Source of the DNA: Muricea muricata | Taxonomy: Eukaryota; Cnidaria; Anthozoa; Malacalcyonacea; Plexauridae | Length of the DNA stretch: 64,000 nt | NCBI GenBank assembly: GCA_963855995.1 | Contig: OY979716.1 | Span: 52,130,846-52,194,845 of the forward strand | Direction of reading: 5' to 3' | Shown: piece by piece, positions 13,572-64,000 of the stretch | How positions within the stretch are numbered: position 1 is the first letter of the stretch | Layout of the letters: each line of letters opens with the position of its first letter | Notes under the pieces: generated by a model | The model's database searches: none | Seen by the model: the letters and a program-made list of their open reading frames with translations, nothing else | What the model was told of the DNA's origin: nothing | Program-made: the position numbers and the translations under genes

Positions 13572-13911
13572 ATCACCTCTAGAAGAGTCAGCATTGCTGG
13601 AAAAATGGTGGGACAAACTGAACAAATCTAATCGGGGGGAGGGGAGTATTTAAAGTGCTTATAAACTCAAAATGGGTTATTGGTGATTCAGACAGAGCTA
13701 AAAAAGTTAGTTAGTAAGTTATCATTTAGTTTTTTCGTAAAGCGTTTAGTTACGGAGATAACCGGGCTCAAAGAAGCCAGCTCGTTGAAAAAGTGCGCAC
13801 CTGTGGGAGACTGGATCCCAGGATCATGTTTACGTAGACTTGATATACAATTACATAGTAATTTTAGTCTCGAAGCTCAAAGATCAGCTATTTTTGCGTA
13901 AAAAAGTTGGA

Positions 13912-14174
13912 ATGTCTAGCTCAAATTCATTCTCAAGTACACATAGCAAGGCTTCTACGAGCACGCCTCTTGAAAAATTTAATTGAAAAATCACACGATG
14001 AAGGCACTCAAGGTAGCCATGATGGGCATGGCGAAAACTATTACATGGATGCTTACCCAGATGAGCCAATTGCTGACGAAAATTGGCTTCAAGAGTATTA
14101 CCGGAGGCAGGAGAGGAAGCTGAAAAAGTTAAAGAATTACAACTTTGATGGAATGAGAGTAAACCTGTAACATC
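13912..14174 (+). pseudogene. P2X7-tail (P2RX7_C) gene copy 1, exon 1
   Basis: N-terminal exon of a stand-alone protein related to the cytosolic tail of vertebrate P2X7. It begins ATG TCT AGC (MSSSNSF), like MSNSSSF in the copy at 59897. The acidic linker ends in DEPIADENWLQEYYRRQE, matching DEPIADKVWLAEYNRRQE there. Two single-base shifts break the frame: one between about 13960 and 13990 and one near 14153, where a lost A before ATGAGAG hides the expected end PVTSW. With that base the exon would run to donor TCATG/GTAATT at 14175 and join W-C-T-C-G-N-C in exon 2. These lesions make this copy a likely pseudogene. Confidence 0.7.
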
Positions 14175-14368
14175 ATGGTAATTTTCGTACAATTTTCATT
14201 TTTTGCCATGCACGTCACTTGGTATGTGTTTTACATAATATGCGCAAATTAAATTTTCGGCAAACTGAGAGTTGCCTTATTAATTAAAGAGCATTGTCAT
14301 TTACATTTCATAATTACAGTACAGTGGGTTTATTTAAAATCATTCTACCATCAATATTCGTTCCATAG

Positions 14369-14617
14369 GTGCACTTGTGGCAATTGTAGCACTGGATTGT
14401 TGCAAAATGCCAAAGAATGCTGTTGTTGCCTGGAGATTGAAAATTGCTTACAATTCATTGAAGTTTATTGTAAAGATGGTAAAGGAGCACTGAAATTTAT
14501 AACAGATCACCCCGGTTTTCCAGCTGTTTGCCTCAACGAGTGGTCGTTAGAGATTGTGGCTGATAGTTATAAAACTCGAGATGGTCGACGTTACAGACAG
14601 AGTGGTTCAAAAGAAAG
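14369..14617 (+). pseudogene. P2X7-tail domain copy 1, exon 2 (zinc cysteine cluster)
   Basis: Opens after TTCCATAG with G-TGC, completing W-C-T-C-G-N-C, the hallmark start of the P2X7 intracellular domain. LLQNAKECCCCLEIENC and WSLEIVADSYKTRDGRRY follow. In rat P2X7 this cytosolic 'ballast' holds a two-zinc cluster and binds a guanine nucleotide; the cysteines here are in the same order. It ends at donor GAAAG/GTAGAC, phase 2, and splices correctly into exon 3. There is no transmembrane segment or ATP-binding ectodomain anywhere nearby, so this is the tail alone, not a channel. Confidence 0.8.
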
Positions 14618-14691
14618 GTAGACTTATTACCATTCATTTTAGCTGAAGATGTAACTATTACATAACCTTGATATGTATTTTTCCAATATAG

Positions 14692-14863
14692 GTTTCTTCG
14701 AGGTGTTGCATATAGACAGTTCACACGAATGGTACATGGTCGGTTAAGGGATAAAAGAATACCATTGCCTTCTTGTGCATATACTGCTATTCGTTCCACT
14801 TTTAAGCTTGATCATGCATTTACTGGCTATGATGATATTGGAACAGATGACGAGAGTCAATAA
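14692..14863 (+). pseudogene. P2X7-tail domain copy 1, exon 3
   Basis: From acceptor CCAATATAG, reading (R)FLRGVAYRQFTRMVHGRL, then RIPLPSCAYTAIRSTF, FTGYDDIGTDDE and stop TAA. This is the family's C-terminal block: LRxxAYRxF, hydrophobic-G, PSCxxxxIRxxF, YxGF/Y. Phase and sequence fit exon 2 exactly. It ends naturally 56 codons in. The three exons together give a protein of about 220 residues, were exon 1 in frame. Confidence 0.8.
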
Positions 14864-15735
14864 TTATCTTTGAATGGGTACAGACATGTTTTTAATATGC
14901 TAGCTCACTATTGGAAGTTCAAAGACTTAAGTATCTGAAGTATATAAAATCTTTTAACAGCTACAATAATTTCTGTTAATTATGTCTCTACACAATTGCA
15001 AATAAATGTTACATGTGCTCTGAGAAATAGCATCTTGCATAAAAATGAACAAACTTGTTTGACAATATTTTCTAGTTATACTACATGAAAATTAATTTTT
15101 CACCTTGAATGAATTTGAATTTTATCATCATCCCCCTGCCCTCCCCCTACTAATTATTGATTCTATCGGCCACTCAAGAATCTTGAGCATCTCAAAATAC
15201 TGGGTCAAACAGTGTTATTATTAAGTTCTTCGTAAGTTTGCACGGTGAGCATCAATATCAGTTATTATTACCTAAAGTTTGTTTTCATAACCCAGCTTGA
15301 CAAGATGCTATATCTTGGGAGTATATTTTCCATTGACTGGCAGGTTTTTACATTCAGAGACATCTGTGTTAGATTAATATGTGCATAATATATTATTATT
15401 TCATTAAAGGACTACTGGCATTGTGTTCTCAATTTGCTTATGGCAGCCATTTTATCTGGGACACCAAGATAAAAACTTTTTATAATCCATCTAATAACAA
15501 ATCAATTTATTTGCAAATCTTTGCTTATTTAACCTGATTGTTACTGGTATGGAAGCAAACAAAGACTTTTTGATATTATTTTTAATTTTTGACAAAATTT
15601 AACAAAATGTAAACAATAACAAAAGCCTGCAATACTATGGTGTGACAGTAATCCTTTAAACAAGAAAAATATTTTTGGTAATGGCAAACAAGTGCTTCTG
15701 TAATATATACATTCCAAATGCAATGCAGTGCAACT
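14864..15735. other. Intergenic part of Kolobok copy 1
   Basis: Between two convergent gene ends. No open frame with a domain; probably 3' untranslated sequence and deletion-joined transposase introns. Confidence 0.5.
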
Positions 15736-15857
15736 TTAGTTTGCTTTATTTCTTGGACAAGAAGCTACATTTTTGTGGCCTTTCATAGGCTGCTTGCACA
15801 TCTTGCATTTTGGTGCATTTCTTTTTGGTTTGGTGCTGGTAGTTGATGCGGTTGGAA
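15736..15857 (-). pseudogene. Last exon of Kolobok transposase (C-terminal zinc knuckle), remnant
   Basis: Minus-strand exon after acceptor TTTTACACAG, encoding KPKRNAPKCKMCKQPMKGH then KNVASCPRNK and stop. The C-x2-C-...-H-x5-C pattern is a small zinc knuckle. The same tail closes the transposase genes of the other two Kolobok elements here: CKAPMKGHPRGHCP at 29.2 kb and KCTLCKQPMTRHKNVTNCP at 61.8 kb. No other transposase exon survives in this element, so the exon identifies what was deleted. Confidence 0.75.
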
Positions 15858-16379
15858 CTGTGTAAAATAACATATGAAGCATCAGTACTGGGTATGATAC
15901 TCGAAACATTCTGGCATAAAGTGTTTTGAGCAAACAACAGACGAACGTGTTGGCGTCCATTTATCTCGCCTCCGTCAAACGAAGTCCATCCATTTCTTCC
16001 TTCGTTTTACTGCTTCGGATGAGCTTTAATCCCAAAATGGTATCTGGTACAAGAATATATCATTTTCCTTGTCTGTAGTATTAGAACACCCATAAACAAT
16101 GCATCTTTCAGGCATTTTTCCACAAAAAACTACGGTGACACATGTATTCGCAATAGAACGCGCCTAGTGACTGTGAAAATTGGTTCTTGGGACCCAGGCC
16201 TCTAAGCATAAAATTTGGATGCGCACTTTTTTTTCCAAATGTGGCCAAACTAGCACGTTTGACTGCATTTATCTTCACAACTAAACGCTCAACAAAAAAC
16301 TAAATTATAACTTACCAACTAACTTTTTGAGCTCTATTTGGATCACCAAAAAACCATTTTGGGTTTATAAGCACTTTAA

Positions 16380-25147: not shown

Positions 25148-25340
25148 CATCACAGCAAGTCAATTATTAAAGTGTACATGAAATGTCGGGGACGCTCCTC
25201 ATTTTTGTGTTTTCTTTGAGATAGTACCATTCTTTATTTTTTACATATTTTTTAACAGCGAGAAAACAAACAGAAAGCTAAATATTTAACCTTCTTTGTC
25301 ATGCCTTCAGTCATATATATGTCAACCGACAGCTTTTGCG

Positions 25341-25348
25341 TGACGTCA
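25341..25348. promoter_or_regulatory. CRE-like palindrome TGACGTCA in the left terminal repeat
   Basis: An exact TGACGTCA, the CREB/ATF consensus, lies 80 bp before the transposase ATG. An identical site lies at 41116-41123 in the right repeat, about 100 bp before the other gene's ATG. Each terminal repeat therefore probably acts as an inward promoter. Motif identity is seen; function is inference. Confidence 0.45.
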
Positions 25349-25427
25349 CAGTATGGATCATATTTCGTTCACGAGCTTTATTTACAATTCGCGCGGTGTT
25401 AAAATAAGCTTAGGAAAAGCCTTCGTG

Positions 25428-25792
25428 ATGGAATCGCAATTAAAAACAAAGACTAAACACCGTGGGGGAAGTTATTGTGTTGCTGGTGGTCCTGGCAATA
25501 TTAGTTGCACCAATGGAGCATACACAGAGGGAATTTCCATGCACAAATTTCCGTCAGAGAAGCGCAAGAATTTGAGGGCACAATGGATCAAGTTCGTGCA
25601 ACGGCATCGGCCAATGTGGCAACCTTCTGCAACATCCCGCCTGTGTTCTGCCCATTTCACCGAAGAGTCGTTCACGCAACAATATAGCTCCAATGAGGCA
25701 TCGAGTTTGCGACGAGTTTTGCTTCAACACGCCGTTCCCTCTGTGGACGTTGCTGGCATTCCAGTGGCATCAACTTCAATTTCCTCCCAGTG
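25428..25792 (+). CDS. Kolobok transposase, THAP zinc finger exon
   Basis: N-terminal DNA-binding exon of the element's transposase. From ATG 25428 (MESQLKTK) it shows a THAP finger: SYCVAGGPGNISCTN, then MHKFPSEK, AQWIKFVQRHRPMW, SRLCSAHFTEESF (the C-x2-H pair) and HAVPSV, the AVP box. The first cysteine pair has an unusually long spacing (C-x9-C) against the usual C-x2-4-C. THAP domains bind element ends in P and Kolobok transposases. The frame stops at TGA 25790-25792; the overlapping CA/GTGAGAG is a probable donor. A longer frame begins at 25353, but the 25428 start sits outside the terminal repeat and fits the THAP consensus. Confidence 0.8.
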
Positions 25793-25893
25793 AGAGCGCA
25801 GAAAGGTAAAATACAAAGCATGAGATTCATGTTTGTGAAATATTTATGCGCATCAATGTCTTTTTGTAAACTGTATTTTTAAAACTGTTTAGA

Positions 25894-26151
25894 TTTTGTG
25901 TGACGCACTTCAACCCTCGACTACAACATCCACAGACAAACCCGAGACATGTGAGGTTGGGGAAACTGTGATCCCTGAAGTCGCAAGCGCCAGTTATATT
26001 GGACCGGTGCAAGAATCTTGTGAAAATTGCGCAAAGTTTAAGAAGCAAATAAACAGTCTTCGTAGCGCATTTATCAAAAGCAAAAAAAGAAACAAAACAA
26101 AACAGGAAAAGATAAGACAACTTACATCACAACTGAAAGAATATGAAAAGG
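25894..26151 (+). CDS. Kolobok transposase, linker and coiled-coil exon
   Basis: Follows acceptor CTGTTTAG. It has a threonine/proline-rich linker, then SCENCAKFKKQINSLRSAF and a lysine-rich heptad-like helix (KQEKIRQLTSQLKEYEK), typical of the coiled coil that follows THAP domains and mediates oligomerisation. The end is near the AAG/GTTTGC step at about 26151. The splice phase to the THAP exon is not clean, so the boundary is approximate. Confidence 0.55.
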
Positions 26152-26412
26152 TTTGCAATTTTAGAACTGGTGTAATATAATATATTAATAATATTTCGAC
26201 AATGTGCATGAATATAGGAAACCATCTCTTTAGGCATCCCTCTTTCGACTGTTTGCCCTGGGAGTAAAGGGAGTTTTTAGCGCAACTTGGGTACAGGTTA
26301 TTCTGAAAATTCAAGTAATAAAAAAAAACTAATAATATATTTACATAAAAAAATTGGTAAATCTAGATTTCAATGAAAAAAATCATTTCAATAGATTTAT
26401 TCTCAACATGAA

Positions 26413-26640
26413 GTGGCTACTACCAGTATGGATACTGGTGGTGAGGCATTCCCTGATGCAGATGACGACGAGTGCATGTCAGAGATTTTAGTGGAAATGG
26501 ATTGGTCTGAGGAAGAGGAGGACATCAGCAGAGATCCAGACTGGGCAGAGTTGGAAGAAATTGTCTCTGAATCTGATGATGATAGTGATAGTAAAGATAC
26601 CAGAATGAGGGATGACCAGCAAACTAAAAATTTCATATCG
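26413..26640 (+). CDS. Kolobok transposase, acidic linker exon
   Basis: A highly acidic segment (MDWSEEEEDISRDPDW, IVSESDDDSDSK) ending QTKNFIS before a GTAAGA-like donor at about 26640. Acidic linkers of this type lie between the coiled coil and catalytic region in THAP-Kolobok proteins. Function is not known. Confidence 0.5.
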
Positions 26641-26784
26641 TAAGACATACATGTAATTTACTTCTTCAGTGTATGTGATTTACCAAGTCAAATTGTAAAT
26701 ATTTGATATTATTAGTTAATTAATGTTGTCTAGGATGAAAGCATAATTGCCAGGCAACTAAGTATCTGGGTTTTTTCTTTTTTA

Positions 26785-27315
26785 GAGCCACTGATACCAC
26801 TCCTGAAAAAGAACCTAAATTTCTTATTTTCTATTCCTGTTTGTTATCACTGTTTTCATTGTTTTGCTTTAACTGCAAGCAAGGAAAATTTGATGTTGCC
26901 ATGAAGAGTAATGGAACACTGGTAACAGTCCTCCAAACATGCAGTTCATGTGCAAAGGAGTTTGTATGGAAGAGCCAGCCCTACATCCTTGGCAAACATC
27001 CTGCTGGAAACATGTTACTAAGCAATGCAATACTTATGGCAGGTGCATCTGTTTCAAAGGTGCTGTTGGTATGTCAACACCTTGGACTTGAAGTCTATAG
27101 TGTTCGGACATATTTCTACCACCAGAAGAACTATTTATTTTCTGCAGTCGTTAAACACTGGAAGAATTATCACTCATAGAGTCACTAAAGTTGAAAAAAG
27201 CATTGACTGGTGTGGAGATGGAAGGTTTGTCTCAATGGGACATTGTGCCAAGTATGGGGTATACACCATGTTTTGTAGTGACATTGATAAATGTGTGCAC
27301 TTCGAATTGATTCAG
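26785..27315 (+). CDS. Kolobok transposase, first catalytic exon
   Basis: From acceptor TTTTTTAG, reading EPKFLIFYSCLLSLFSLF, CFNCKQGKFD, LQTCSSCAKEFVWKSQP, AGNMLLSNAILMAGASVSKV and VVKHWKNYHS. All are hallmarks of Kolobok transposases. The frame then shifts by one base near 27170 and continues as SIDWCGDGRFVSMGHCAKYG, which supplies the first catalytic aspartate (GDGR), ending at donor TTCAG/GTATAG. The CxxC pairs may hold zinc. The shift is a lesion unless explained by an unseen intron. Confidence 0.8.
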
Positions 27316-27797
27316 GTATAGTATATCCAAAAAGATAAACTGTTGAGATGCAGCTTGCTTCTGAATAGGGGCAGGTCTTTGGATGTTAATTAAATGCTCA
27401 CAGTGTATACACATTTTCACAATTTACATGTGGGGACTGGGGACCTTAATCTTGTCGACACTAAAACTAGGAGATTAACAATAACATATAGTATTACAGT
27501 TGCCAAATAGGAGTGGGTCATGTACATTTGTGTGTAAGTTCATGTGTCTCATTAAATTGGCTCCTTGATTTACAAATGAATTTAAAATTTTAAATATTTA
27601 TTAAACAAAAAAAAGAATTTCTATGCTCCTCTCCCTTCCATTATGTGATCGTCACAACATATCTAAAGTCTAGTCCTGACCCTGTACTACACAACAATAA
27701 CCACACAGATGGGACAAAAAGTATACTTATCTTCTGTTGTGTCTACTAGCTGCACTTCAATCATGAGGAATATAAATACTTGTATTCTATCTTATAG

Positions 27798-28232
27798 TCT
27801 AATGAAACTGGAGGCAGCACACAAATGGAGCTTGAGGGTGCAAAGAGAAGTTTCAGCTTTCTTGGTTCTTCTGGAGTGGTTATTTCTAAATTTGTCTCTG
27901 ATCGTCACAAAGGCATAGCAAAGTGGTTAAGATTACAACACCCGGATGTAACACACCTGTATGATATCTGGCATGTGATCCGGTCTTGCATTAAGAAATT
28001 GGTGAAAGCAAGCAAAACAAAGGGTTTAGAAGTTCTAAAGGAATGGACTAAAGGTGTTCAGAATCACCTTTACTGATGCATTCAGTCTACAAAAGCAGGA
28101 TTTCACCAACTTGTTATTGCAAAATGGATATCCCTACTTCGTCATGCATCAAACAAACATGAAGGTCATGGTGAACTATTCCCTAATATGCATATGGTGA
28201 AGACATCCAAAAACGGAAGTGGATTAAAGTTG
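27798..28232 (+). CDS. Kolobok transposase, second catalytic exon (with TGA nonsense)
   Basis: From acceptor CTTATAG: SNETGGSTQMELEGAKRSF, FLGSSGVVISKF, VSDRHKGIAKWL (the DRH motif with the second catalytic aspartate), HLYDIWHVIRSC and GVQNHLY. At 28073-28075 a TGA stands where relatives have TGG (NHLYW). In-frame reading resumes as IAKWISLLRHASNKHEG and ends at donor AGTTG/GTAGGC. The point nonsense codon shows the gene is dead or needs read-through. Confidence 0.85.
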
Positions 28233-28311
28233 GTAGGCAAGAATTATTAAAAAAACACATGTAGTTAAATTGTACACTACTTAACATTTAATATTTTTTG
28301 CATTTTCACAG

Positions 28312-28979
28312 GTACTCCTGCTTATGACAAATTCCAACAGATCATAACAGATACTAAACTGAAGAAGGATATAACAAAGCTGTCTCCAGATCATCAGACC
28401 AGTGAACTTGAAGGCCTGCACTCAACAATAAACCATTGGCACCCAAAGATGTTGCATTTTTCATGGCTTGGAACATACTGCAGGTACAGATCATGTGACT
28501 TGTTGCATATGCTCCATCTAGTTTAATATACTGTAGTTAATATTTATTGTTTTGGATCTCCCATTTTAGACATGTATTGGCATGTTTGCATTATAATGAA
28601 AACTTAAAGAGGATGACAAAGAAAACAAAAAAAGGAAAGGTGTACACTAAAGTGTCATACCCCAAATATAAACTGGGTGAGGAAGTAGTACGAGATGTCA
28701 AAGTGCAACCCACATACAGTAAGTGCAAAAGTTAAAAAAGTACTATAATTTCTAATTCATTTGATAACTGATAAATATGTATTATGTGTTCACAGAATAT
28801 GTTGACGATTTGACTGCTGTGTTACTAACAACTACTAAAGATGACCTTTTAAAAGTGAGGCAAGACATGAGCAAAAATATACCTGAACAACAAATCAGTT
28901 CACAGAAAGAAGAGCTAGAGAAGCTGCAATAAAAAACCAAATGGAGAGAAAGAGTAAAGTTCAGCAACTTTATCCTGAA
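28312..28979 (+). CDS. Kolobok transposase, exons with catalytic glutamate and C-terminal region
   Basis: Three exons. 28312-28483 reads GTPAYDKFQQIITDTKLKK, LSPDHQTSELEGLHSTIN (the E of the DDE triad) and HFSWLGTYCR. 28570-28718 reads HVLACLHYNENLKRM and VSYPKYKLGEE. 28796-28979 reads KYVDDLTAVLLTTTKDDLL, then a helical tail with an in-frame TAA at about 28929-28931. Each boundary has GT/AG signals (GCAG/GTACAG, ACA/GTAAGT, GAAG/GTATAT), and the last two boundaries join in frame. The order and motifs match THAP-Kolobok transposases. Confidence 0.82.
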
Positions 28980-29135
28980 GGTATATAGGAATCAAATCTA
29001 ATCATTTCCATAGCAGCATGTGTTTAGAAATTAAATCATACCATGCATTTAGGTGGTATAGTAAAAAATAATGACTTGTCCCTAATGGTTTTAATTATTT
29101 CAAAGCAATTGTATCACTTTTTGTTTTTTGAACAG

Positions 29136-29267
29136 CTTCTGAACAAGAAACTCAAGAAAGAGAGTTGCAGACACCCCCAAGAAACTTTTCAATGTGCCAA
29201 AAAAGAAAGAAGGAGCAGAACATGCAAAGCTCCAATGAAAGGCCATCCTAGAGGGCATTGCCCATAG
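29136..29267 (+). CDS. Kolobok transposase, last exon with zinc knuckle
   Basis: From TTTTGAACAG, a lysine-rich tail followed by RSRTCKAPMKGHPRGHCP and stop TAG. It corresponds to the C-terminal zinc knuckle of the other copies, but the first cysteine of the pair is missing here, in line with decay. Confidence 0.65.
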   Translation, partial: LLNKKLKKESCRHPQETFQCAKKERRSRTCKAPMKGHPRGHCP

Positions 29268-31022
29268 ATTATTACAACTGGATAGGCTATTGAATAAGAT
29301 TTAATAATTTGTTCTAAAAATTGTTTAGTTGTTTATAATAGTTTTATGATTACAATCTATTTACCTGAACCTCTTCATTCACCCGCCCCCACCCCTGTTT
29401 TGTTTGTTGTTACTGGCTTTTATTTAAATTTATTTACAGCTTATTTAATAAACTATGAGCATGCAAGGAATGACAGGTTAATTCTAATTTAACCTCTAAA
29501 CATGACATTATTTCTTTTTAACAGCATTTAGGACTTGCTACGAAAACAATAGGCCTTGGCCTGATTCTAAAATATATAAACAATAATCTATCATCCCTTG
29601 CATGCTCATAGTTCACAGTTTATGCTTTTGGAAAGACAACCTTAAGGGCTCCTAAACATAGGATTCCTAAATCAGTCTTCAGGGGGGGGGGGTGTGATGA
29701 AGAGATGATGGTGTACATATAGATTTCTTAATGGGAAGTGCTGACGTATGGTATTTACACACGCGTTAATTTGTTTTTGCAAAACGAACGAGCGAGTGAG
29801 TTTGGCGAAAACAAATTAACAAGTGCGTAAATACCGTACATAAGCACTTTCCATTAAGAAATTTGTTTATTTTATAGAAACTGATATTTTCTATTCAAAA
29901 GATCGCCTTTACCCAACCTAAATTTGGCTCACTTAAACGTCAAGCGCCTGGCAAAGAGGACTTTGCTTTTGCAAAAACCAAGAACAAAACGTCATCTTGC
30001 ACGATGCCGTATGTACAGTATATGAAAATTACTTTGCTTTTTGAAGCCAGATCTAATAATATAAACCCTAATAAACCAGCAGTTTTTAATTTTTCCTTCA
30101 AATAAGCAAAGAATACAAAGCCTATCTTTTCAAAATCTTAAAAAGTTAATATAATGTAAATGCAACTTACCTAGCTGTTTGTTTTGGTATAACTGCCGTG
30201 TCTTTTGCTTGCATATTTCTCTTTCAAAAATATATTTTCGGTTTTTTATAAAATTGTAAATCTTTGTAAACATGGGAAATTGCCCAATGTGTCGAATTAA
30301 ATCTAAAATAGACTTTCAGGCACAAGACACACCCAGCAACTTGAAAAAAATCTCGCCGAAAAGTTTGCCGGCTGTGAACGAATTCACTGCTATGTAAACA
30401 CAGGCTCGCACTGATTGGACAAAACGGTTTTTCACGTGTGAAAAAATCGTTTCATGATTCTGATTGGATAACGCTCGTTAAGAACAAATCACGAAACGGC
30501 TTTTCATACAAGAAAAATCGTGCGTAAATATCAGTATCTATATAATAAATAATTATTCCGGACTGCATTCCATGCACTCAATGCTGAAGATCTTCAGCGT
30601 GGATTAAACAAATCACAATAGTAAATACCAGAATGCAGAGTACGACAGTTTTCAACAAGATCTCGGGTGCGGAGAAGGCACAAATCTTAGGTGCGGGTGT
30701 GCAAAACAGTTGCCAAGTGCAGATCAGGAGTGAGTTAAGGGGCAAAAGTAACAAAGTATGTGTTAAAAACAATGAAAATTAGAGCTTTGGGGGCAGATTT
30801 TCTCTATAAAAAATCTTGGGGCACCGTTGACATACTCTGCAGTCTGGAGTAAATATAATAAATATTTGCGTAGCTTCGGCATGGAGTTTACATGGAATGT
30901 ATCCTGGTAATACTTGATGTATATAAGAAACAATTTACTAAAAATATGACACTCAACAAAGTTAAATAACCTCAAATAAATGCTTTCAATAAGGTTATGT
31001 TAGCAGTTATGCTATTAAAGTT
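29268..31022. other. Intergenic region between the two convergent Kolobok genes, with small foldbacks
   Basis: Contains two inverted-repeat structures. In one, AACTATGAGCATGCAAGGAA (29451) pairs with the inverse of TTGCATGCTCATAGTT (about 29598-29613). In the other, TTCTTAATGGGAAGTGCTGA...GTATTTAC (from about 29727) pairs with GTAAATAC...AGCACTTTCCATTAAGAA (to about 29861). Both look like MITE insertions. No gene seen. Confidence 0.55.
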
Positions 31023-31186
31023 TTAGTCTCTGTCTTCAGCTGCTAAATATCCAGTATGAGCACCCTGAGTAGAAAATCGTTCTCGAATTTCATGATAAAT
31101 ACATGCTGGCAGTGATCTGGTATTTCCCACCCCATTAATCCACAAACCCAGCGAATAATGAATCGATAAGCCACAGCACGTAGAAC
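31023..31186 (-). pseudogene. P2X7-tail gene of the 16-kb Kolobok element, exon 3
   Basis: Minus strand, from acceptor CTATAG. It reads LRAVAYRFIIRWVCGLMG, then after a one-base shift SLPACIYHEIRERF, THTGYL-type ending AHTGYLAAEDRD and stop. These are the LRxxAYR, PSC/PAC-x4-IRxxF and YxGY landmarks of the domain. Two single-base deletions are inferred: one just after the acceptor, since exon 2 joins in the wrong phase, and one in ATGGGGTGGG. Confidence 0.72.
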
Positions 31187-31345
31187 CTATAGATAATAAT
31201 AATATATTGTGATAATACCCATATAAGTTAATTCAAGTGTCTTCGTCTTCAAAATAGAAATGGCATGTTTACTCTTAGTAATATTTTGTTTGAAATAATG
31301 CCAATGACTGGTGTGTTAATGTATTTTTATATAAGATCAACTTAC

Positions 31346-31585
31346 TGGTTCATTGTCATGTTTTCTCCCCGTTTCATTGTGCGACCATCTTTTCGCTTTA
31401 AAAGAGGTGCAACCTGTTCTAAAACCACCTTTTCTGTAAGGGGTCTGTAATGTTGATGACTTACAATACAAGAAGGATCAAGACCTTCGGAAGTGTATTT
31501 TTTAACAACTTCAACGACTTCTTGGCAACAACGAAATTCCATTGAGCCTACTAAATTCTTGTCGCTGCAATGGCCACAAGTACAC
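31346..31585 (-). pseudogene. P2X7-tail gene of the 16-kb Kolobok element, exon 2 (zinc cluster)
   Basis: Reads C-T-C-G-H-C, SMEFRCCQEVVEVVKKYTSE, LDPSCIVSHQHYRPLTEKVV and MKRGENMTMN before donor CCA/GTAAGT. The order CxCGxC, CC-x-E, CI, L-x3-VL follows the P2X7 tail closely, even more so than the 14.4 kb copy. The expected acceptor AG immediately before G-TGT-ACT is GG here, so splicing of this exon is probably lost. No channel domains nearby. Confidence 0.78.
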
Positions 31586-31656
31586 CCACACACAAAAAAT
31601 AGTATTTAGTTGATCACAGTAAAATATTCAAAATAAACATCCATTGCCATACATAC

Positions 31657-31708
31657 CAGTTTTGAACGGAAATAACTCGATCAAAGCGTTGTTCCAAAAC
31701 TTCTCTTG
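31657..31708 (-). pseudogene. P2X7-tail gene, exon 1 distal half (downstream of the EnSpm insertion)
   Basis: Reads REVLEQRFDRVISVQNW, ending at donor AACTG/GTATGT so that W-C-T-C-G-H-C is formed with exon 2. Its upstream edge is exactly the EnSpm end (31709). Joined to 40828-41013 minus one copy of the TG duplication, the frame reads KIP-REV without a stop. Confidence 0.75.
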
Positions 31709-31729
31709 CCCTTACGAAAATGTTCAATA

Positions 31730-31860
31730 GAATCCTATAGAATATGGTATAGAATATTCTATATCCTATAGAATATTCTATAGGACGTTCATATTCCATA
31801 GAATATTCCATTGAGCTACTCTATAGGATTCTAAATCCTATAGAATATTCTATTCCACAT
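31730..31860. repeat. Left subterminal array of the EnSpm-like element
   Basis: Dense repeats of TATAGAATATTCTATAGGA and variants in both orientations, potential transposase binding sites, mirrored by the 40540-40815 array. Confidence 0.8.
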
Positions 31861-32726
31861 TCATGTCAATTGCAATTTTGTAACAATGTCGATATCGAAA
31901 AACAATACTAGTAATATTGACACATTCAATATTTCGTCTGCATGCTCCATATTCAGCATCATACACATGTTTTTTAGCAACTTTCATGAAACATGTGTCG
32001 CAGCAATACTATACATGCATTCCTGAAAACTTACTAGGATTATTTTAGATTTATTTGGCAACTTGCGTTTTAACTGCAGTTTCCTTAAGGGATGTGTAAG
32101 TGTTTGGAGATTCCACTAATATTAATTTTAAAAATGTTAATTTTTTTAAATAGGAAATACATAGAAGCATAGCATAACATCCCCAAAATTTTTTATTAAA
32201 ATAGATTCTAAAATTTACAGGAGATTTTATATACATAGTGAGCACCCATATGGTAGATTGTAAGCAAAGAAATATGTCATATCTGAATATTCTGGCTTTC
32301 CATTCACTTTTTTTAAATTCAAATTTTAGGACAAAGTGAGTAGATGAAAATTTTGCAAGACATTTGTGAAAAATAGGAAACCCCTATGTAATTTTTGCGT
32401 TTTCATCCTTTCTGTAAAACGTGCTTAACATTGCTTTCTACTTTCAACGCATTTCTTTGCTAATTTTATCTTACTATTTGACTAGTTAATACTTAGTTTG
32501 AATAGTTGTTTGCAATTGATGTAATCTGTGATTTAGTTGAATATAGGTGTTTACTATAAACTCTACATTTCCTTACAGTTTTTCAGAAGAAATGTGCTAG
32601 ATGTAAGAACTGAATCCACTAAATGTAGTCAAGTCAAAATTTTAGGTTCAAGATTGATATTCAATCTAAGTCAATAAATAACAGACAACACCAATTGCAA
32701 TCTGGGTAATTATATACATATTTACA
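31861..32726. other. Non-coding 3' region of the EnSpm-like element
   Basis: AT-rich; no gene. Lies between the subterminal array and the transposase stop codon. Confidence 0.5.
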
Positions 32727-34760
32727 CTAATCATCATAAATTCTATAGGGCAATGGACAGAAATATGCTTTGCTGCCCAAGCTTACACAGATACACTTAC
32801 GAATTATATCCGATGGATATATTGCAATTATGTCCTCGCTTTCCTCAACTTCCACAATAAAATTGCTTGAAACTTTAAAATCTACGTCTCTAAATAACAT
32901 TCTATGGCTAGCATGCATTAGTTTTACAAAGACTACATTATATATAGTGCAATGACAATATTGTGAGGCTTCTAAAGCACAACGACACAGTGGCTTAATG
33001 CTTAAAAGACCTAAAATTCTACCATATTTCGATGCTGGGTGCTGAATTGATACATCATGGTTTGTGTGACGTTTAGATCGAGTGTAACTAAGAGAAGAAT
33101 ACAACTTATGGCTGAACAAAAATCTATCATACATCTTTCCACAACGGTTGTTAACAGTTAGATTTAGAAGAGCTTCCAAAGCAACTAACATACGTGCATT
33201 CAAAGTGACCGGTTTTGCAGATCCTAAAGATACCAATCCACCAGAGGCATTATTATGAGCAAATCTAGCATTTTCAGTTAGTTTATCGATTGCCTCTTTT
33301 ACACTAGCAGAAGAATCGTCATCAACACAAGTTCTTGCAAGTAAAGAAATCTTGTTTCTTAGCAAAAACGTAGCTGTTATTTGCTGTGGGACACACTGTG
33401 TCCCATGAAACATACTAATGAGTACATGATTATGTGACTCAAAAGTGAAGGTAGAAGTCGCCCACAAGGGACCACAATCCTTAACACAATGTGCCAAATG
33501 TGTCAAGCAATGAACATTGAATTTGCAGCTTGACAAACCATACAATTCCTCTATCTTGATGACAAACTTTGTCAAACAAACCTCAGCAAGACAAATTGAA
33601 GACCTAGAAATTGAATCACCTAACAGTGTATAAATACCATACACAAAAAGAAAGTAGTGGTTCAAGAAGGGATGAGGGAGAATTCCTTGAAGAACAACAA
33701 GGCTGTAAAAAATGAAAGCCCTCCACTCAGATGCCTTCCAGTAATGACGTTGGGACATGCTACGAGGGCTTCTGTGTATTTCACTAGGAGGGCTAATCAG
33801 CTGCAATCGCTCATCAACTAACTTGACCTTTTGGCCAATATAGAAGTCTTCACCATGATGTTTGCTCTCGAACCAAAGATCAACCATTTGCCTCATGACC
33901 CCTTGGCAGACAGAATGCATGTAATCTGTCACCGTTCCTCTAACGGTATCAAATGATGGTAATAGATCAGCTACTGTGATACCTTTCACTCCCTTAACTG
34001 AATGAGCTGCTGTAGCCTGCAGTGCATAAGATGCTTGTTTTTTAGAACTCCGCATCACCACTGGCATTCTATGGGGATAATAACGAACTGGCGGACCACC
34101 TGCTGTTGACACAGCTACTCCTTCAAACTCACACCAATCACACCCAAACTGACCATTGAATTGTTTTACATTTCGAATAATAGCCCGAGCTGGTGAATCA
34201 GCAGACAAAAGAAAAGCAAACACCCTCCTTCGCTGAGCCTCACTGCCAAACAGAAAACCCTCAGTCTCTAACTTTATGCACTCTTCAACAAAAGGAACCA
34301 AGAAAACATTCATATTTGGTTTCTGACCAAACCACAGACCTAGTAGCAAGATGTTTTTGTGGCGAAGATGAGGAGGAAGCTCATTCACAGAAGCTTGCAA
34401 TGGCCATATTGCATAGTTGGAAGATTTAAATACAGGAATGCCATCTGAATTCCACATTAAGGATATGTCATTTGAACTAAGGCCTTGTTCATTTATAAGT
34501 TCTTTGTACAAGTCAGAAGTTATTACATCAGTTACAACTAATGAATTAAGACTTTCTTCTATATTTCTATTAGTTAAATAGGAGAATAATTTTGCATTAC
34601 CAAGCAATGACTCAATCTGTTTCTGCAGGGGAATATACAGAAAATAATTTCCACTCTTGATGCTTTCTTTTTCATTGAATAACCTTCTACATGACTTGCA
34701 AGCTGCTATAGAGGTGTCCTTTCCCAAGTATGCTGTACATGTGGAGCAGTAAAAATGTTT
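32727..34760 (-). CDS. EnSpm transposase (Tnp2 type), main exon
   Basis: Nearly 680 uninterrupted residues after acceptor AATTTGTAG at 34761. A cysteine pair at the start (STCTAYLGK, ACKSCRRLF) is followed by the Tnp2 family core: LMWNSDGIPVFKSSNYAIWP (first acidic motif), LLGLWFGQKPNMNVFLVPFV, then FGCDWCEFEG, DYMHSVCQGVMRQM, HYWKASEWRAFIFY, NVHCLTHLAHCVKDCGPLW and FTFESHNHVLISM. These are the landmarks of plant and animal En/Spm (CACTA) transposases and of DUF4218-like domains. It performs cut-and-paste transposition via a DDE fold. No stops or shifts were found, unlike every other transposase in this window. Confidence 0.85.
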   Translation of the reverse strand, partial: KHFYCSTCTAYLGKDTSIAACKSCRRLFNEKESIKSGNYFLYIPLQKQIESLLGNAKLFSYLTNRNIEESLNSLVVTDVITSDLYKELINEQGLSSNDISLMWNSDGIPVFKSSNYAIWPLQASVNELPPHLRHKNILLLGLWFGQKPNMNVFLVPFVEECIKLETEGFLFGSEAQRRRVFAFLLSADSPARAIIRNVKQFNGQFGCDWCEFEGVAVSTAGGPPVRYYPHRMPVVMRSSKKQASYALQATAAHSVKGVKGITVADLLPSFDTVRGTVTDYMHSVCQGVMRQMVDLWFESKHHGEDFYIGQKVKLVDERLQLISPPSEIHRSPRSMSQRHYWKASEWRAFIFYSLVVLQGILPHPFLNHYFLFVYGIYTLLGDSISRSSICLAEVCLTKFVIKIEELYGLSSCKFNVHCLTHLAHCVKDCGPLWATSTFTFESHNHVLISMFHGTQCVPQQITATFLLRNKISLLARTCVDDDSSASVKEAIDKLTENARFAHNNASGGLVSLGSAKPVTLNARMLVALEALLNLTVNNRCGKMYDRFLFSHKLYSSLSYTRSKRHTNHDVSIQHPASKYGRILGLLSIKPLCRCALEASQYCHCTIYNVVFVKLMHASHRMLFRDVDFKVSSNFIVEVEESEDIIAIYPSDIIRKCICVSLGSKAYFCPLPYRIYDD

Positions 34761-34995
34761 CTACAAATTAAAATATAAAGGTTGGACCAGTTTCTGCTAA
34801 ATAAGAAGAGGATGATTCGGTGGCACATATTGAACCCCAGGATATTATGCTGCTCTTCAATTTTTTTCATTCCAAAATGAAGAAAGTGACAAGTGGCAAA
34901 TCCAAGCTTTTTGAACTTTGGGGGAAAATTTACTAGAGTATACATCTGCTTAATGACATAAGTCACCAACAGTAATTAAAATTTAAATAACATAC

Positions 34996-35205
34996 CTCTG
35001 ATTGCTCTAGCTGGAATGATTTGTAAAATTTGTATTTGCTGGTTGGAACTATATTTGGAAATAAAGTGTTAAACACCAGCAGCAGATCCTCTATGGCCAC
35101 ATCTGTAAGTTTGTGCCTCAGCACAAAACAAAGAATCAGAAGGAGACTTTGGGCCTTCGTGACATTCGAGCCAGGATAAATAGGACCATTTCTATCTTCC
35201 AAGTT
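34996..35205 (-). CDS. EnSpm transposase, upstream exon
   Basis: Reads NLEDRNGPIYPGSNVTKAQS, LLLILCFVLRHKLTDVAIED, LLLVFNTLFPN, ending YKSFQLEQSE at donor CAGAG/GTATGT. The block YPGSxxTxxQSxxLI...RHxLTxxAxxDLL is the conserved N-terminal region of animal Tnp2-type transposases. The acceptor is TTATTTCAG at 35206. Confidence 0.82.
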
Positions 35206-35487
35206 CTGAAATAAGTACATGTTTTTATGTTTAGTGAAAATGGTTGCACAAGGCAAAATATACATAAACAAGATTGATGGGAAAAACAAAATAAATAGGC
35301 AATCTATCTATAATACAATGTGTAAAATACAATTCTTAAAATTCAATTCAATCATTTCAACCATTAATAAGAAAAAGGGACAATTCATGTAGCATAATGT
35401 CTTGAGTGGTCACAAATAAGGCAGACATAAGTTCTATTTCCAAATATAGGAGTCGAAAAATATACTGGGTACTATACTTTGATATAA

Positions 35488-35828
35488 GGGACAGTTCATT
35501 ATTTATGGCCGGGGGTGGGCTGGTAAGAATGTAGGGGGGGATCCAAAATTTTAGGCAATTTGAGGGGGGTCATAAAAAATATGCCAGTAGGTTGGGGGGT
35601 ATCACCTGCTATTGAATAATTTGTTCAGTGATATGTTCATCAAAGCTAATATTTATTATAATATGAATGTAAATACAAAATGGAGGGCTAGTTTAATAAT
35701 TTGTATTTATATCAAGGGGAGTCATGGATTTTTTGTTTTTCAAATAAGAGGGGTCAAGAAGTTTCTTTTTGGTTTATGATAGATATTACCAGCCCACCCC
35801 CCCCGGCCATAAATAATGAATGGTCCCC
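35488..35828. mobile_element. Foldback MITE in a transposase intron
   Basis: Left GGGACAGTTCATTATTTATG and right (reverse complement) GGGACCATTCATTATTTATG, both continuing GCCGGGGG...GGTGGGCTGGTAA. About 340 bp, no coding. Located in the intron between the 34996 and 36217 exons. Confidence 0.8.
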
Positions 35829-35883
35829 AAACCATACACAAAATACATAAATTATGTGTGAAATATATTTAAAGATTATATAT

Positions 35884-36076
<193 letters not shown>

Positions 36077-36216
36077 CTTCGGTATTGAGCACTATAAACT
36101 ATATATGATTCCGCCATCCACAATCATATATATATATATATTTTATTCGAACAAGGGTAACAATTCCTATTTCCTAACATTGCTATACCATATGGCCAAA
36201 TTTAAACTATAAATAC

Positions 36217-36363
36217 CTGTTGATTGTCAACACTGTTCCTGTCATCGCTTACAACATTGATGCCTGGATCAGCATTATTATCTAAATCATCACCATCCAA
36301 ATTCTCATCTGCACCACTAAAATATTCACTTTGATCTTCTAAATCTTCATTCATACACTGAGC
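36217..36363 (-). CDS. EnSpm transposase, acidic exon
   Basis: From acceptor CATATATAG: QCMNEDLEDQSEYFSGADEN, LDGDDLDNNADPGINV, ending DNQQ at donor CAACAG/GTATTT. Acidic, probably disordered N-terminal segment; no domain. Confidence 0.65.
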
Positions 36364-36480
36364 CTATATATGTAGCCATAAAATACGAACGCATTGTTAA
36401 ATAGTTATTGTGATTAGCTTTTAAAATTTGTAAATGAGCAAGACACAAAAAAACACATTAAAAATCCCGCCACACTTTAC

Positions 36481-36555
36481 CTGAAAAGCTAATGCTTGAA
36501 AGTTCTCTTGATCATGTTCAATTACATTCCCATCAGAACTTTCCGCAGAATACCT
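36481..36555 (-). CDS. EnSpm transposase, short exon
   Basis: From acceptor TTATTTTAG: RYSAESSDGNVIEHDQENFQ ending ALAFQ at donor TTTCAG/GTAAAG. Supported by clean splice signals and continuous acidic character with the neighbouring exons. Confidence 0.6.
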
Positions 36556-36815
36556 CTAAAATAATATTATATATATATTACATATATAGAAAGGTTGCAA
36601 GCAAGTAAACAAATATGAACACCTAAATGAAAAATACGCTGCATTCCATACATGTGTTAATAGAAAATATTTATCCCTAGGTGTCAATTATATACTAATT
36701 TCAAAGCAAAATATATGAATTTTAGATATACATATACAAAATATTTCAGGAGTCTATAGTATATAGAGATATAACAAAATGTCAGAATACTATATGATAC
36801 TAAAATATTACTCAC

Positions 36816-36959
36816 TGGGAGACGCTCATCGCAAATATCGCCGAAACATTCAGCCACTGATGTCTCGTAGTTTTGACGTTTTCGTTTGTTGTATGATGTA
36901 GTTTTCGGCACAGATGCAGTGGGATCGTATTCGTAGCGCTTATAAGATCCTCGCGACAT
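36816..36959 (-). CDS. EnSpm transposase, first exon
   Basis: ATG at 36957-36959: MSRGSYKRYEYDPTASVPKT, then KRKRQNYETSVAECFGD (basic, a likely nuclear signal), ending LP at donor CTCCCA/GTGAGT. It faces the BEN gene start at 37246, leaving a 286-bp divergent promoter region. Intact. Confidence 0.7.
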
Positions 36960-37245
36960 TTGCTTTTGAATTATTGTTTGATTATTTTACATATCGTTTA
37001 TTACCCAACAGTGTTTCAACTTTCGATGATGTTTCAACTTGTGTTTCGCTCAGTGTTTTAATTAGCCTGCGTGGCCACTGATTATAGCCAATCATATTGT
37101 CGGATGTGCTCACGTGTTAGTGTATCAAATTCCATCACACTATTTAAATTTTCATTTGTGATCAAGAAACAAGCTACAGAAGCATTCAAAGGTTTTCATA
37201 CGATATTTATTTGTAATTTTCGGATATAACTTTTCTTCTTTCATT
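36960..37245. promoter_or_regulatory. Divergent promoter region of the EnSpm element's two genes
   Basis: Only 286 bp separate the two start codons, which point away from each other. Contains repeated GTGTTTCAACTT/CAGTGTTT words and a CAAT-like ATTATAGCCAATCA at about 37080. No TATA box was assigned. Inference from geometry. Confidence 0.45.
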
Positions 37246-40257: not shown

Positions 40258-40827
40258 CTATGCTGAACATGTGAGACAAAAACTGAACTTTTAAATTTTT
40301 TTGTTTATTTTCCAGTAATTTTGTATATACTTTTATATGTTTTATGTAGGATTTATATAGGTTATTATAAGATTTTACCATGTGTATTTAAAAAATGAAA
40401 AATATATATTTATGGAACTTATGTTTGCTCCAAATTGGACAAATCTTATGCTAGTGTTACTTTTATCCTGTGACTCATGAATCACCTGTTATGCTCGTAG
40501 AAATTTCTTTCATTTCAGATATTTTATAGAACTTGAATTGAATGTGTTATGGAATATTCCACAGAATTTCAAATAAATATGCTATCAGATATTTTATTGA
40601 ATGTGTTATAGAATATTCCATAGAACATCAATTGAATGTGCTGTATGATATTCCATAGAACATCAATTGAATAAGCTATATGATATTCTATATAACTTCA
40701 ATTGAATGTACCATAGAACATCCTATAGAATATCCCATAGAATAGGTTCCAATATCCTTTCGAATATTCTATAGAACATGTCATAGAATATTTCAATGTA
40801 ATATTCTATAGAATATTTTCGTAAGGG
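40258..40827. repeat. 3' region and right subterminal array of the EnSpm-like element
   Basis: After the BEN stop codon, repeats of TATTCCATAGAACATCAATTGAATGTG(C/T) and ATTCTATAGAATATT run to the inverted end at 40827. Confidence 0.8.
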
Positions 40828-40829
40828 TG

Positions 40830-41013
40830 GTATCTTATCAGGGTCTGAAATGTCGTCTGCATTGCTTTCAGAATCCGAACTAGTTTCGGACGCAAGAGCC
40901 TCGTCTTGATACGATTCTACGGCGCCAATATCCACGTCTGATTCAAGCAAACTGCTATCACCTGACATATCCAAGTCACTGCTGGTTGTTGAAGCATTGT
41001 CCGATTCTGACAT
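40830..41013 (-). pseudogene. P2X7-tail gene of the 16-kb Kolobok element, exon 1 proximal half
   Basis: ATG at 41011-41013: MSESDNASTTSSDLDMSGDS, SLLESDVDIGAVESYQDEAL, ending ISDPDKIP where the EnSpm element interrupts. It is acidic, like the first exon of the copy at 59.9 kb. It lies about 100 bp inside the right terminal repeat's CRE site. The remainder of the exon is at 31657-31708, 9 kb away. Confidence 0.7.
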
Positions 41014-41115
41014 TGTGTCTAAAAGTCTGAAAATCGCTTTTGAACCTTGTGTTTACAACAATATAGTTGAATTACGTGACAAACACCAAGGTGAATTAAA
41101 ATATGATCCATACTG

Positions 41116-41123
41116 TGACGTCA
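41116..41123. promoter_or_regulatory. CRE-like palindrome TGACGTCA in the right terminal repeat
   Basis: Mirror copy of the site at 25341-25348, about 100 bp upstream of the P2X7-tail start codon on the minus strand. Confidence 0.45.
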
Positions 41124-41313
41124 CACAGTAGAAACTGTCAGTTTACTTCCGGTTGACATATATTTGACTGAATGCGTGACAAAGAAGGCTAAATATGTAG
41201 CTTTCTGTTTGTTTTCTCGCCGTTAAAAAACATGTAAAAAATAAAGAATTGAACTATCTCGAAGAAAACATACAAAAATTAGTAGCGTCCCCGACATTTC
41301 ATGTACACTTTAA

Positions 41314-59896: not shown

Positions 59897-60174
59897 ATGT
59901 CTAATTCCAGCTCGTTCTTGAGTGTGCGTAGCAGTTCTTCTGCTAATAAGGATTATGAAATAGAAGAGGAAATGCTAGAAAGCGAAAAAAGCGACTTGGA
60001 AGTTCAGCACGAAGATGGCCATGTCGATGATGATTCCGACAGTGAGGCTTACTTTGATGAGCCAATTGCTGACAAAGTTTGGCTGGCAGAATACAATCGG
60101 AGGCAGGAGGAAGACAATGAAAGAATGAGAGAACTGCAACTTTGTTGGAATGGGGATAAGCCTTTAGTATCATG
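59897..60174 (+). CDS. P2X7-tail gene copy 3, exon 1
   Basis: ATG 59897: MSNSSSFLSVRSSSSANKDY, an acidic region (EIEEEMLESEKSDLEVQHED), then EAYFDEPIADKVWLAEYNRR, ending DKPLVSW across the donor CATG/GTAATT at 60175. An alternative upstream GTG start at 59846 is less likely. It is the best-preserved first exon of the three copies and matches copy 1 at DEPIADxxWLxEYxRRQE. Confidence 0.78.
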
Positions 60175-60288: not shown

Positions 60289-60559
60289 GTGCGGTTGTGG
60301 TAACTGTAGAATTGAAATGCTACAAAACGCTAAAGAATGTTGCTGTTGCGAGGAGATAGAAAAGTGTGTAGAATTCCTTGCAGAATTTTCTGAGGTCTCA
60401 TATCAAACTGCCATGTCTGACAAAGGGATACCGAAATGTGTAAATAGAACACCCTGGTTTTCAAGCATTTTGCCTGAACAGATGGTCATTAGAGCTTGCT
60501 GCAGGCAATTGTAAAACTCGCAATGGGCATCGTTATGGCCAAATTGGTTCAAAGGAAAG
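60289..60559 (+). CDS. P2X7-tail gene copy 3, exon 2 (zinc cluster)
   Basis: After acceptor TTTTTTTAG the split codon gives W-C-G-C-G-N-C, then MLQNAKECCCCEEIEKCVEF, IPKCVNRTPWFSSILPE. A one-base slip near 60480 is needed to continue as WSLELAAGNCKTRNGHRYGQ and reach donor GAAAG/GTAAAA. Cysteine order matches the P2X7 ballast domain. The single slip could be a lesion or a sequence error. Confidence 0.8.
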
Positions 60560-60712: not shown

Positions 60713-60894
60713 GTTTCTTCGAGGTGTTGCATACAGGCAATTTACCTGTATGGTGCATGGTCAGTTGAAAAACAGAAGGGTACCATTGCCTTCTTGTGCA
60801 TATAACATAATTCGTACAACACATAAACCCAAACATGGTGCATGTACGGGTTTTGATGACATAGAAACAGATGTCGATAATACTTCATACAGGT
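60713..60894 (+). CDS. P2X7-tail gene copy 3, exon 3
   Basis: From acceptor TGCTCTTTAG: (R)FLRGVAYRQFTCMVHGQL, NRRVPLPSCAYNIIRTTHKP and CTGFDDIETDVDNTSY. Same phase and landmarks as copy 1. Either it reads on to a stop at 61035-61037, or it splices at ATACAG/GTATTT into a short last exon after TTTGACAG at 61083 (QCEGLMGKANWC, stop). Confidence 0.78.
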
Positions 60895-61776: not shown

Positions 61777-61910
61777 TCATTCCTTTTGGTTTCGTGGGCA
61801 GTTGGTGACATTTTTGTGGCGTGTCATTGGCTGCTTACATAATGTGCATTTGGAAGGATTTCTTGGTTTCACTGTATTGCTTGTTTTTTTGCCACGTGTG
61901 ACAGCAGGGA
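61777..61910 (-). CDS. Kolobok copy 3 transposase, last exon (zinc knuckle)
   Basis: From acceptor TTAATTTTAG: VKPRNPSKCTLCKQPMTRHK, NVTNCPRNQKE, stop. C-x2-C-x6-H-x5-C knuckle, complete here. Homologous to 15736-15857 and 29136-29267, converging on the P2X7-tail gene in each case. Confidence 0.75.
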
Positions 61911-62019
61911 CTAAAATTAAAAAATGAATATTTAAGATTGTAAACAAAAATATATGGTTGAAAAATGTGGGCTATGTTACAGTCAAAACTCAAATTTAAT
62001 GTACAGTCTTGTTGTGTGT

Positions 62020-62170
62020 ACCTGGGATAGTTGGAGGAACATCTACAAGCTATCTCGCATTGTCTTCTTTTAGATTGCTTCCTCCTGTGATTGTTTCACA
62101 AGCATAGTGTGCACAGGTGCTGGTGTTTGTTGCTTCAGCTCTGTAATTGCATCCTTTTGTTATGTATTCC
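62020..62170 (-). CDS. Kolobok copy 3 transposase, helical exon (decayed)
   Basis: Reads DAITELKQQTPAPVHTMLVK, QSQEEAI then a stop, corresponding to IPEQQISSQKEELEKLQ at 28.9 kb of the 16-kb element. Boundaries uncertain. Confidence 0.4.
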
Positions 62171-62876
62171 TTCTTTATTTCTATGTACGCAAGGTAGCTG
62201 ATCGTTACAGTTTTTTTCTACAGTCTCTATAGCTCAAGTTCTTCTTCTTCGTCCCTCTTGTCCTGTGTAGTCTTACCTTGCCTTCTTGAGTAGTGTTTTC
62301 GCTTCCTTTTGGCTACTCTGCAGCTACTCAGCAACTACTTTGCAGCTACTGCTTATTCAACTGTGGCGATCCTTTTATACTAACGGTTGTAACTTGCAGG
62401 TGTAAGTTCAAAGTTTTAGTTACATTGGAATTTCCTTATTTACAACAAAACAGTATTTAACAGTTCAAGTATCGTTAGTTATACTGCAGTGACGCTAAAC
62501 GGAAAAGATTACTGACATGTTTGCGCAAGGTACCAAATTAATTTCTCAAACATTGACAGTTCAAGTATCATTAATTACATTGTGATGTCAACAGAAGAGA
62601 TAACTGACATGTTTGTGCAAGATACCAATTTATAATTTCCTTTATGTACTTGCAAAAACAAACATGCCCATCATCTCTCTCGCTGACATACCTTGCCTGG
62701 GGAAATATAATTTGGCTATTTTTATGCTATTTATATACTGCTTCGTAACACTTTAATCTGTGGCTTTGTAATGCTTCGTACATGGTTTGAAAAATGTTAA
62801 AGAATAAAATATATTTGGCAATGTGATTGAGAACTTGATGGAACAATACATTGCATTAAAATGTTATCTTACATAC

Positions 62877-63031
62877 CAAAATTTTGTTTCACCGAAACCT
62901 TTTGGACCACAGCTTTCACCATTCACGAACTTTGGATACACTACATTGTACTGTTCTACACCATTTTTCATCTTCTTTTCTCTGCACAGATTTTTGTTGA
63001 AATGCATGACTGCAATTGCATGTCGGCAAGA
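62877..63031 (-). CDS. Kolobok copy 3 transposase, HFN exon
   Basis: Reads RHAIAVMHFNKNLCREKKMK, VEQYNVVYPKFVNGES before donor TTTTG/GTATGT. Equivalent to LACLHYNENLKRM...VSYPKYKLGEE in the other copy. Acceptor not certain. Confidence 0.6.
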
Positions 63032-63242
63032 AAAAAAGGGCTGTCAATTTCAAAATCATATAAAATATGACTTGCATCTGTATATATATACATACAGTAG
63101 GACTGGGCCATATATGTTTTGATTTCTGTGAAACATTTTTTTAAAGTAAAAGGGCACTTTGCCCAACAAAAAATCTCCTCCTGTATGAATACAATACCCT
63201 CAATAATACCTGCAAAACATTCCTGTGTATAACTAATTAATC

Positions 63243-63381
63243 ATTTTGGGTGCAAAATGATTCAGGACAGAGTGAAAGCCTTCCATGCAACGTGTCTGCT
63301 CTATGGGAGAGGTTTGCATAATCCCTTCCGTCAGTCTTTTGTTTGTCAGTGATGAGCACATTTTCTCATATGCAATTGAAT
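63243..63381 (-). CDS. Kolobok copy 3 transposase, catalytic glutamate exon
   Basis: From acceptor GTTATAG: SIAYEKMCSSLTNKRLTEGI, QTRCMEGFHSVLNHFAPKM. MEGFHS carries the third catalytic residue. No stop within the exon. Confidence 0.72.
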
Positions 63382-63592
63382 CTATAACAAATACCATCAA
63401 TTAATTAATTAATTATCAATTTCTATACCACATCTTCTATGTTTTCCACGCATTTAGATTTCTATCACTGTATACAGTATAAGCAGTCATGTTCCTATTC
63501 ATGTCCCAAATGCACTTTATTTGGTGAAACAAATGTAGTTTACTGTAACAAATGTTCAATAAATACATGCAATACAAACATATACAAGTTAC

Positions 63593-63843
63593 CTTTGTCC
63601 AACCATTTGCGTGGCTGAATTGTAGCAATGTGCCTACATTTATTGAACAATAGGTTATCCAGATTTTCATGTTCATTGACAACATGGCTAAGAAAAGATG
63701 AAAACTTGGCCCATATACTTCCCCATTGCCATCACAAGTTGCTCTTGCACTCCAGTAGTGATAGTTTTGGCAAGGCTTTATCCACTCTGCTATGGTCTCA
63801 CATCCACTCGCTTTTGCAATTTTTGATAAAACTTTTATGACCT
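63593..63843 (-). CDS. Kolobok copy 3 transposase, NHLYW-type exon
   Basis: From acceptor GCAATTTAG: VIKVLSKIAKASGCETIAEW, IKPCQNYHYWSARATCDGNG, EVY, then after a one-base slip near 63714: AKFSSFLSHVVNEHENLDNL, LFNKCRHIATIQPRKWLDK, donor AAAG/GTAACT. Here the tryptophan that is TGA at 28073 in the other copy is intact. Upstream exons (THAP, first and second aspartates) lie beyond the window edge. Confidence 0.75.
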
Positions 63844-64000
63844 CTAAATTGCAATGTAAATATGTTACCATAGCTACTACACATACTGTATGAGACTTAC
63901 ATATAGAGTGTCCCATGAGAAACAGATGCTACTGAATTTGCCTATTTTTAAAATTTCATTGGCCTAGTAAACTAAGCTGAATGTGAAGAAGGGTAAAATA

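Follow-up and report, generated by a model that had tools for sequence, protein, structure and literature searches.

The ballast domain of the vertebrate channel P2X7 has already been tied to mobile elements. According to the main text of Kojima & Bao 2022 (PMC9587614), KolX, the second protein of Kol0 Kolobok transposons, shows clear similarity to residues 476-595 of P2X7 and shares its ballast fold and seven conserved cysteines; P2X7 arose when KolX was fused to a P2X4-like gene, and nanor is interpreted as a domesticated KolX. The same text sets the Kolobok superfamily apart from piggyBac by its 5'-RR ends. The text of Rump 2020 (PMC7016195) places the ballast domain across Metazoa in company with two linked markers. 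These markers, we suggest, may be transposon genes. Here we describe a 64,000-nt stretch of the cnidarian Muricea muricata (contig OY979716.1; the whole stretch is called the window), in which three elements, E1, E2 and E3, each carry a KolX gene, and we compare them with ballast-domain matches across the 453-Mb genome. The original prediction held that the ballast domain recurs as a Kolobok accessory gene, that no description of it as cargo was known, and that the P2X7 tail could trace back to a mobile-element gene. The recurrence is borne out and the derivation is right, yet the derivation was already published and KolX already reported by Kojima & Bao.

The best explanation as a whole, which we consider probable, is that these are KolX-bearing (Kol0) Kolobok elements whose ballast gene is their own second gene, acting in trans in transposition. 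Within it, the identity of element and domain is well supported, and the ballast domain is common to the P2X7 tail and KolX by descent.

Linkage of the ballast domain with Kolobok transposase

A genome search with P2RX7_C (Pfam PF20478, curated cut-off 23.5 bits) gave 741 candidates, 150 of which were scored, and all 150 lay above the cut-off; a protein query, a KolX-linked transposase, gave 727 candidates, again with 150 scored. Among the 150 domain matches listed, 94 lie within 10 kb of a listed Kolobok transposase, probably at least that number in truth because 150 of each set were compared. The two genes stand tail to tail in 91 of these 94 pairs, with a median gap of 2.7 kb, and in another layout in three. 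When the domain positions were moved by 0.05-2 Mb in 200 draws, a mean of 3.15 linked cases was left (maximum 8). Tail-to-tail pairs number 41, 29 and 21 in successive fifties by score rank. With 91 of 150 listed matches tail to tail and about 3 expected by chance, the domain is not mostly found outside elements, at least among the matches listed.

Loci of 10 kb were taken around 19 of the 150 matches, a non-random sample of mostly top scores, and six were extended. Transposase similarity is present in 16 of the 19; the listed transposase lies beyond the 10-kb locus in two (L011, L012), and in L009 none is listed within 10 kb. Five elements are complete (6113, 6982, 7151, 7243 and 7270 bp), with TTAA on both sides, 15 or 16 of 16 end bases matching, and KolX tail to tail with the transposase in all five. 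Because they differ in their ends, they do not represent one recent burst. We call this common subfamily Kolobok because it has TTAA duplications and AG...CT ends and because its transposase matches that of E2 in a profile comparison (99.1%, 1e-18) that includes both D motifs, for which the E2 query was joined over a frame break.

Agreement of domain and transposase trees had been proposed as a check, and protein distances of ballast and transposase do correlate: r=0.89 over 15 loci (reached by 0 of 10000 permutations), r=0.64 over 13 loci without the two most divergent (0 of 10000), and r=0.67 over 9 loci (18 of 10000); L019 was left out for coverage. All 171 ballast pairs, 103 of 104 pairs of the cysteine-rich exon described below and 119 of 120 transposase pairs show less nonsynonymous (pN) than synonymous (pS) divergence. 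The dN/dS comparison proposed with the original prediction gives, for unsaturated pairs, medians of 0.13 for the ballast (n=11), 0.37 for the cysteine exon (n=15) and 0.20 for the transposase (n=8), with values of 0.69 and 0.89 in the two closest transposase pairs. KolX is under purifying selection and co-diverges with the transposase.

Three elements of the window

The features of the three elements are as follows; spans of whole elements carry no strand.

13654..16375: E1, a 2.7-kb Kolobok-type element flanked by TTAA, with only the last exon of its transposase left
13912..14177 (+): E1 KolX exon 1, acidic, ending in a split W codon, frame broken
14369..14617 (+): E1 KolX exon 2, the cysteine exon
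14692..14863 (+): E1 KolX exon 3, with motifs LRGVAYR, PSC, IR and TGY
15739..15831 (-): E1 zinc-knuckle exon, a transposase remnant tail to tail with KolX, labelled by eye
25171..41309: E2, a 16-kb Kolobok-type element flanked by TTAA, with a 9.1-kb insertion nested within
25428..29264 (+): E2 transposase, exons from THAP domain to zinc knuckle, with frame breaks
40830..41013 (-): E2 KolX exon 1, first part, with ATG at 41013
31657..31708 (-): E2 KolX exon 1, second part, with the split W codon at its end
31346..31585 (-): E2 KolX exon 2, the cysteine exon, with GG at the expected intron-1 acceptor
31023..31186 (-): E2 KolX exon 3, frame broken
31709..40827: nested element inside E2 KolX exon 1, with a 2-bp TG duplication and ends CCCTTACGAAAA
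59645..64000: E3, its left end directly after TTAA, followed here to the edge of the window
59897..60174 (+): E3 KolX exon 1, acidic, with a split W codon at its end
60289..60559 (+): E3 KolX exon 2, the cysteine exon, frame broken
60713..60892 (+): E3 KolX exon 3
61780..61869 (-): E3 zinc-knuckle exon, tail to tail with KolX, labelled by eye
63437..63928 (-): E3 transposase fragment, a weak tblastn match to the E2 transposase (37 aa, 2.2e-4)

All three had been proposed as TTAA-flanked elements. This stands at both ends for E1 (duplications at 13650-13653 and 16376-16379) and E2 (25167-25170 and 41310-41313), as it does for the five complete elements, but only at the left end for E3, which we count as a one-ended element: a search of the window and about 5 kb past it turned up no right end, the best candidate having 9 mismatches in 25 and no TTAA. 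The inverted arms of E1 are 86 nt at 90% identity and 42 nt at 74%; those of E2 are 127 nt at 91%, with the outermost bases the same on both sides by eye. Outer bases are AG...CT in E1, E2 and the five complete elements, in keeping with the 5'-RR...YY-3' rule. The E2 transposase has a THAP exon (2.1e-15) and a Mutator-like core (PF20700, 5.4e-5, below cut-off). These features, with the AG...CT ends, speak against piggyBac membership. Kolobok is marked by a DDD/E transposase with a C/DxxH motif and a zinc finger ahead of the last E, and of this the core with the two D motifs aligns between E2 and copies elsewhere in the genome. The probable assignment to Kol0 rests on the presence of KolX, the second protein with the ballast domain.

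Blocks of E1 and E3, among them the ends, align at 67-79% nucleotide identity, and E2 matches neither of them at the nucleotide level; nor do the tested 1-kb flanks of the three copies resemble one another. Together this indicates two subfamilies and three insertions rather than one segmental duplication.

The predicted gene layout was found as described, from the acidic first exon with its split W codon through the cysteine exon to the third exon, and in every copy KolX stands tail to tail with the transposase, its last zinc-knuckle exon or its fragments. Joined exons match P2RX7_C in E1 (26.1 bits, 9.5e-6) and E2 (36.8 bits, 5e-9) and, below the cut-off, in E3 (19.6 bits, 9e-4). No KolX in the window is intact, with frame changes in E1 exon 1, E3 exon 2 and E2 exon 3; in E2 exon 1 is moreover split by the nested element and the intron-1 acceptor site reads GG. 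The three copies are dead. The original prediction noted that E1 keeps the domain after losing almost all of its transposase; the domain is there, but because all three KolX genes are broken, E1 included, its persistence is no sign of selection.

The nested element is flanked by TG on both sides, and with the insertion removed the E2 site reads in frame. Its open reading frame (ORF) at 32727-34760 (-) has a weak likeness to Transposase_21 (2.2e-6, below cut-off).

At 56607-58724 (+) a Mutator-like transposase (2.8e-24) lies next to an exuperantia-like DEDDh exonuclease (1.1e-5, just below cut-off). Judged by these similarities, this is likely a KolobokD-type element of the kind described in the text of PMC9587614, where KolobokD with its DEDDh exonuclease resembles the KolX elements in pairing Kolobok with an accessory gene and differs in the accessory gene itself. 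Elsewhere in the window, a hAT-like transposase (DUF4371, Dimer_Tnp_hAT) and an ORF that weakly resembles OTU proteases (0.001, below cut-off) lie at 1564-5673 (+) and 11351-12820 (+), a possible OTU-hAT pairing. Retroelement-like ORFs at 45501-49418 (+) show weak similarity to RNase H (1.7e-4, below cut-off), and the last of them is tyrosine-recombinase-like by eye.

A predicted three-exon KolX and its likeness to P2X7

The N-terminal part of KolX differs between subfamilies, being acidic in E1-E3 and, in the subfamily seen most often, rich in cysteine and in Arg/Gly. In the complete elements, a cysteine-rich exon, an Arg/Gly-rich exon and the ballast exon follow one another on one strand, and in four of the five they join at GT-AG, in phase 0, to an open frame of 367-392 residues. 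The fifth, L010, has internal stops, and the cysteine exon of L016 is without its CPC piece. In 16 of the 19 loci (weakly in L014) a stretch similar to the cysteine-rich exon precedes the ballast; none was found at L027 or in the 10-kb locus of L009, for which the listed matches include one about 8 kb upstream. Genome-wide, with the 72 best of the 137 matches listed, 45 among the 150 listed ballast matches have this exon within 6 kb upstream on the same strand, against a control mean of 0.19 (maximum 2). The N-terminal part gave no match to known families. This predicted three-module gene is, as far as the main text of PMC9587614 shows, an addition to the published account: the Kol0 elements described there, which have a DDD/E transposase, agree with ours in TTAA duplications, 5'-RR ends and a ballast-domain second protein, whereas N-terminal cysteine-rich or Arg/Gly-rich exons do not appear in that text.

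KolX relatives match the P2X7 ballast in sequence (4.8e-25), and their predicted folds match it as well; named relatives of the window genes come from Dendronephthya gigantea and Paramuricea clavata, both octocorals. By alignment, the seven cysteines of the two-zinc site of P2X7 are kept in 57-59 of 59 relatives, and R546, H547 and R578 are kept in 54-56. The text of PMC7016195 lists R546, H547, R574, R578 and K583 as guanine-nucleotide residues of P2X7, and KolX does not have this set of five in full. KolX further differs from the vertebrate domain in being a separate, small protein with no channel part. H547 is confined to deuterostomes in that text, whereas here it occurs in 54 of the 59 aligned relatives; its apparent presence outside deuterostomes is an addition as far as the main text shows. 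The ZCD and nanor-like proteins treated there share with KolX a short form, a C-terminal ballast domain and the lack of a channel, and differ in being presented as genes rather than transposon genes.

What KolX might do in transposition

Linkage, layout, co-divergence, purifying selection, predicted fold and conserved cysteines are shown above; that KolX takes part in transposition, and how it would do so at each stage, we infer. KolX would most likely act in trans with the transposase of its own element. Its N-terminal part would bind a partner or nucleic acid, and the ballast fold with its two zincs would be the core through which the complex for cutting and insertion at TTAA assembles or senses nucleotides.

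Several observations weigh against this reading. The Pfam Mutator model (PF20700) gives no match to the transposase of the common subfamily, and a search for a transcript with the cysteine-rich exon joined to the ballast exon found none. R574 and K583 of the guanine-nucleotide site are replaced in the aligned relatives. Silent sites are saturated in 159 of 171 ballast pairs, and co-divergence is to be expected of two genes that remain together in an element, so the correlation speaks for stable linkage and not for function.

The 56 of 150 listed domain matches with no listed transposase within 10 kb count against it too, and are what one would expect if KolX were a passenger, a host ballast-domain gene captured by elements with no role in transposition; E1, which holds the domain after losing nearly all of its transposase, could be taken the same way, were it not that all window copies, E1 too, have decayed. 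Repeated capture would not readily give co-divergence with the transposase, a tail-to-tail layout fixed in 91 of the 94 linked cases listed, or the low ballast dN/dS, and we regard a passenger as unlikely. A little less likely again is a self-regulator or anti-host factor (a repressor of the transposase, or a counter to silencing) outside the transposition complex, a role with which a separate gene on the opposite strand agrees and for which the N-terminal parts, acidic or rich in cysteine and Arg/Gly, would be suited through contact with chromatin or RNA. That the three copies lie inside about 50 kb could suggest one segmental duplication or parts of host P2X genes. The unlike 1-kb flanks tested and the separateness of E2 speak against the former; as to the latter, all 17 P2X-receptor (PF00864) matches of the genome cluster at 0.92-1.06 Mb on another contig (C14), where they probably make up a few genes, and none of the 150 listed ballast matches lies on that contig, nor was any channel domain found with a ballast in one gene among them. 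Either is hardly credible.

A stronger form of the KolX-bearing Kolobok explanation would make KolX a needed, dedicated cofactor, cysteine-rich, Arg/Gly-rich and two-zinc, and guanine-nucleotide-binding in its fuller form, from which P2X7 would have inherited its guanine-nucleotide site; we hold this to be doubtful. GTP is a cofactor of P-element transposase, a loose parallel to this idea.

Genome-wide linkage, co-divergence and predicted folds together provide a test of the published account, in which the tail of P2X7, a channel that is a drug target, came from a transposon. The putative three-module KolX, and the retention of R546, H547 and R578 in cnidarian-type KolX, would further point to transposition as a route to ballast-domain function.

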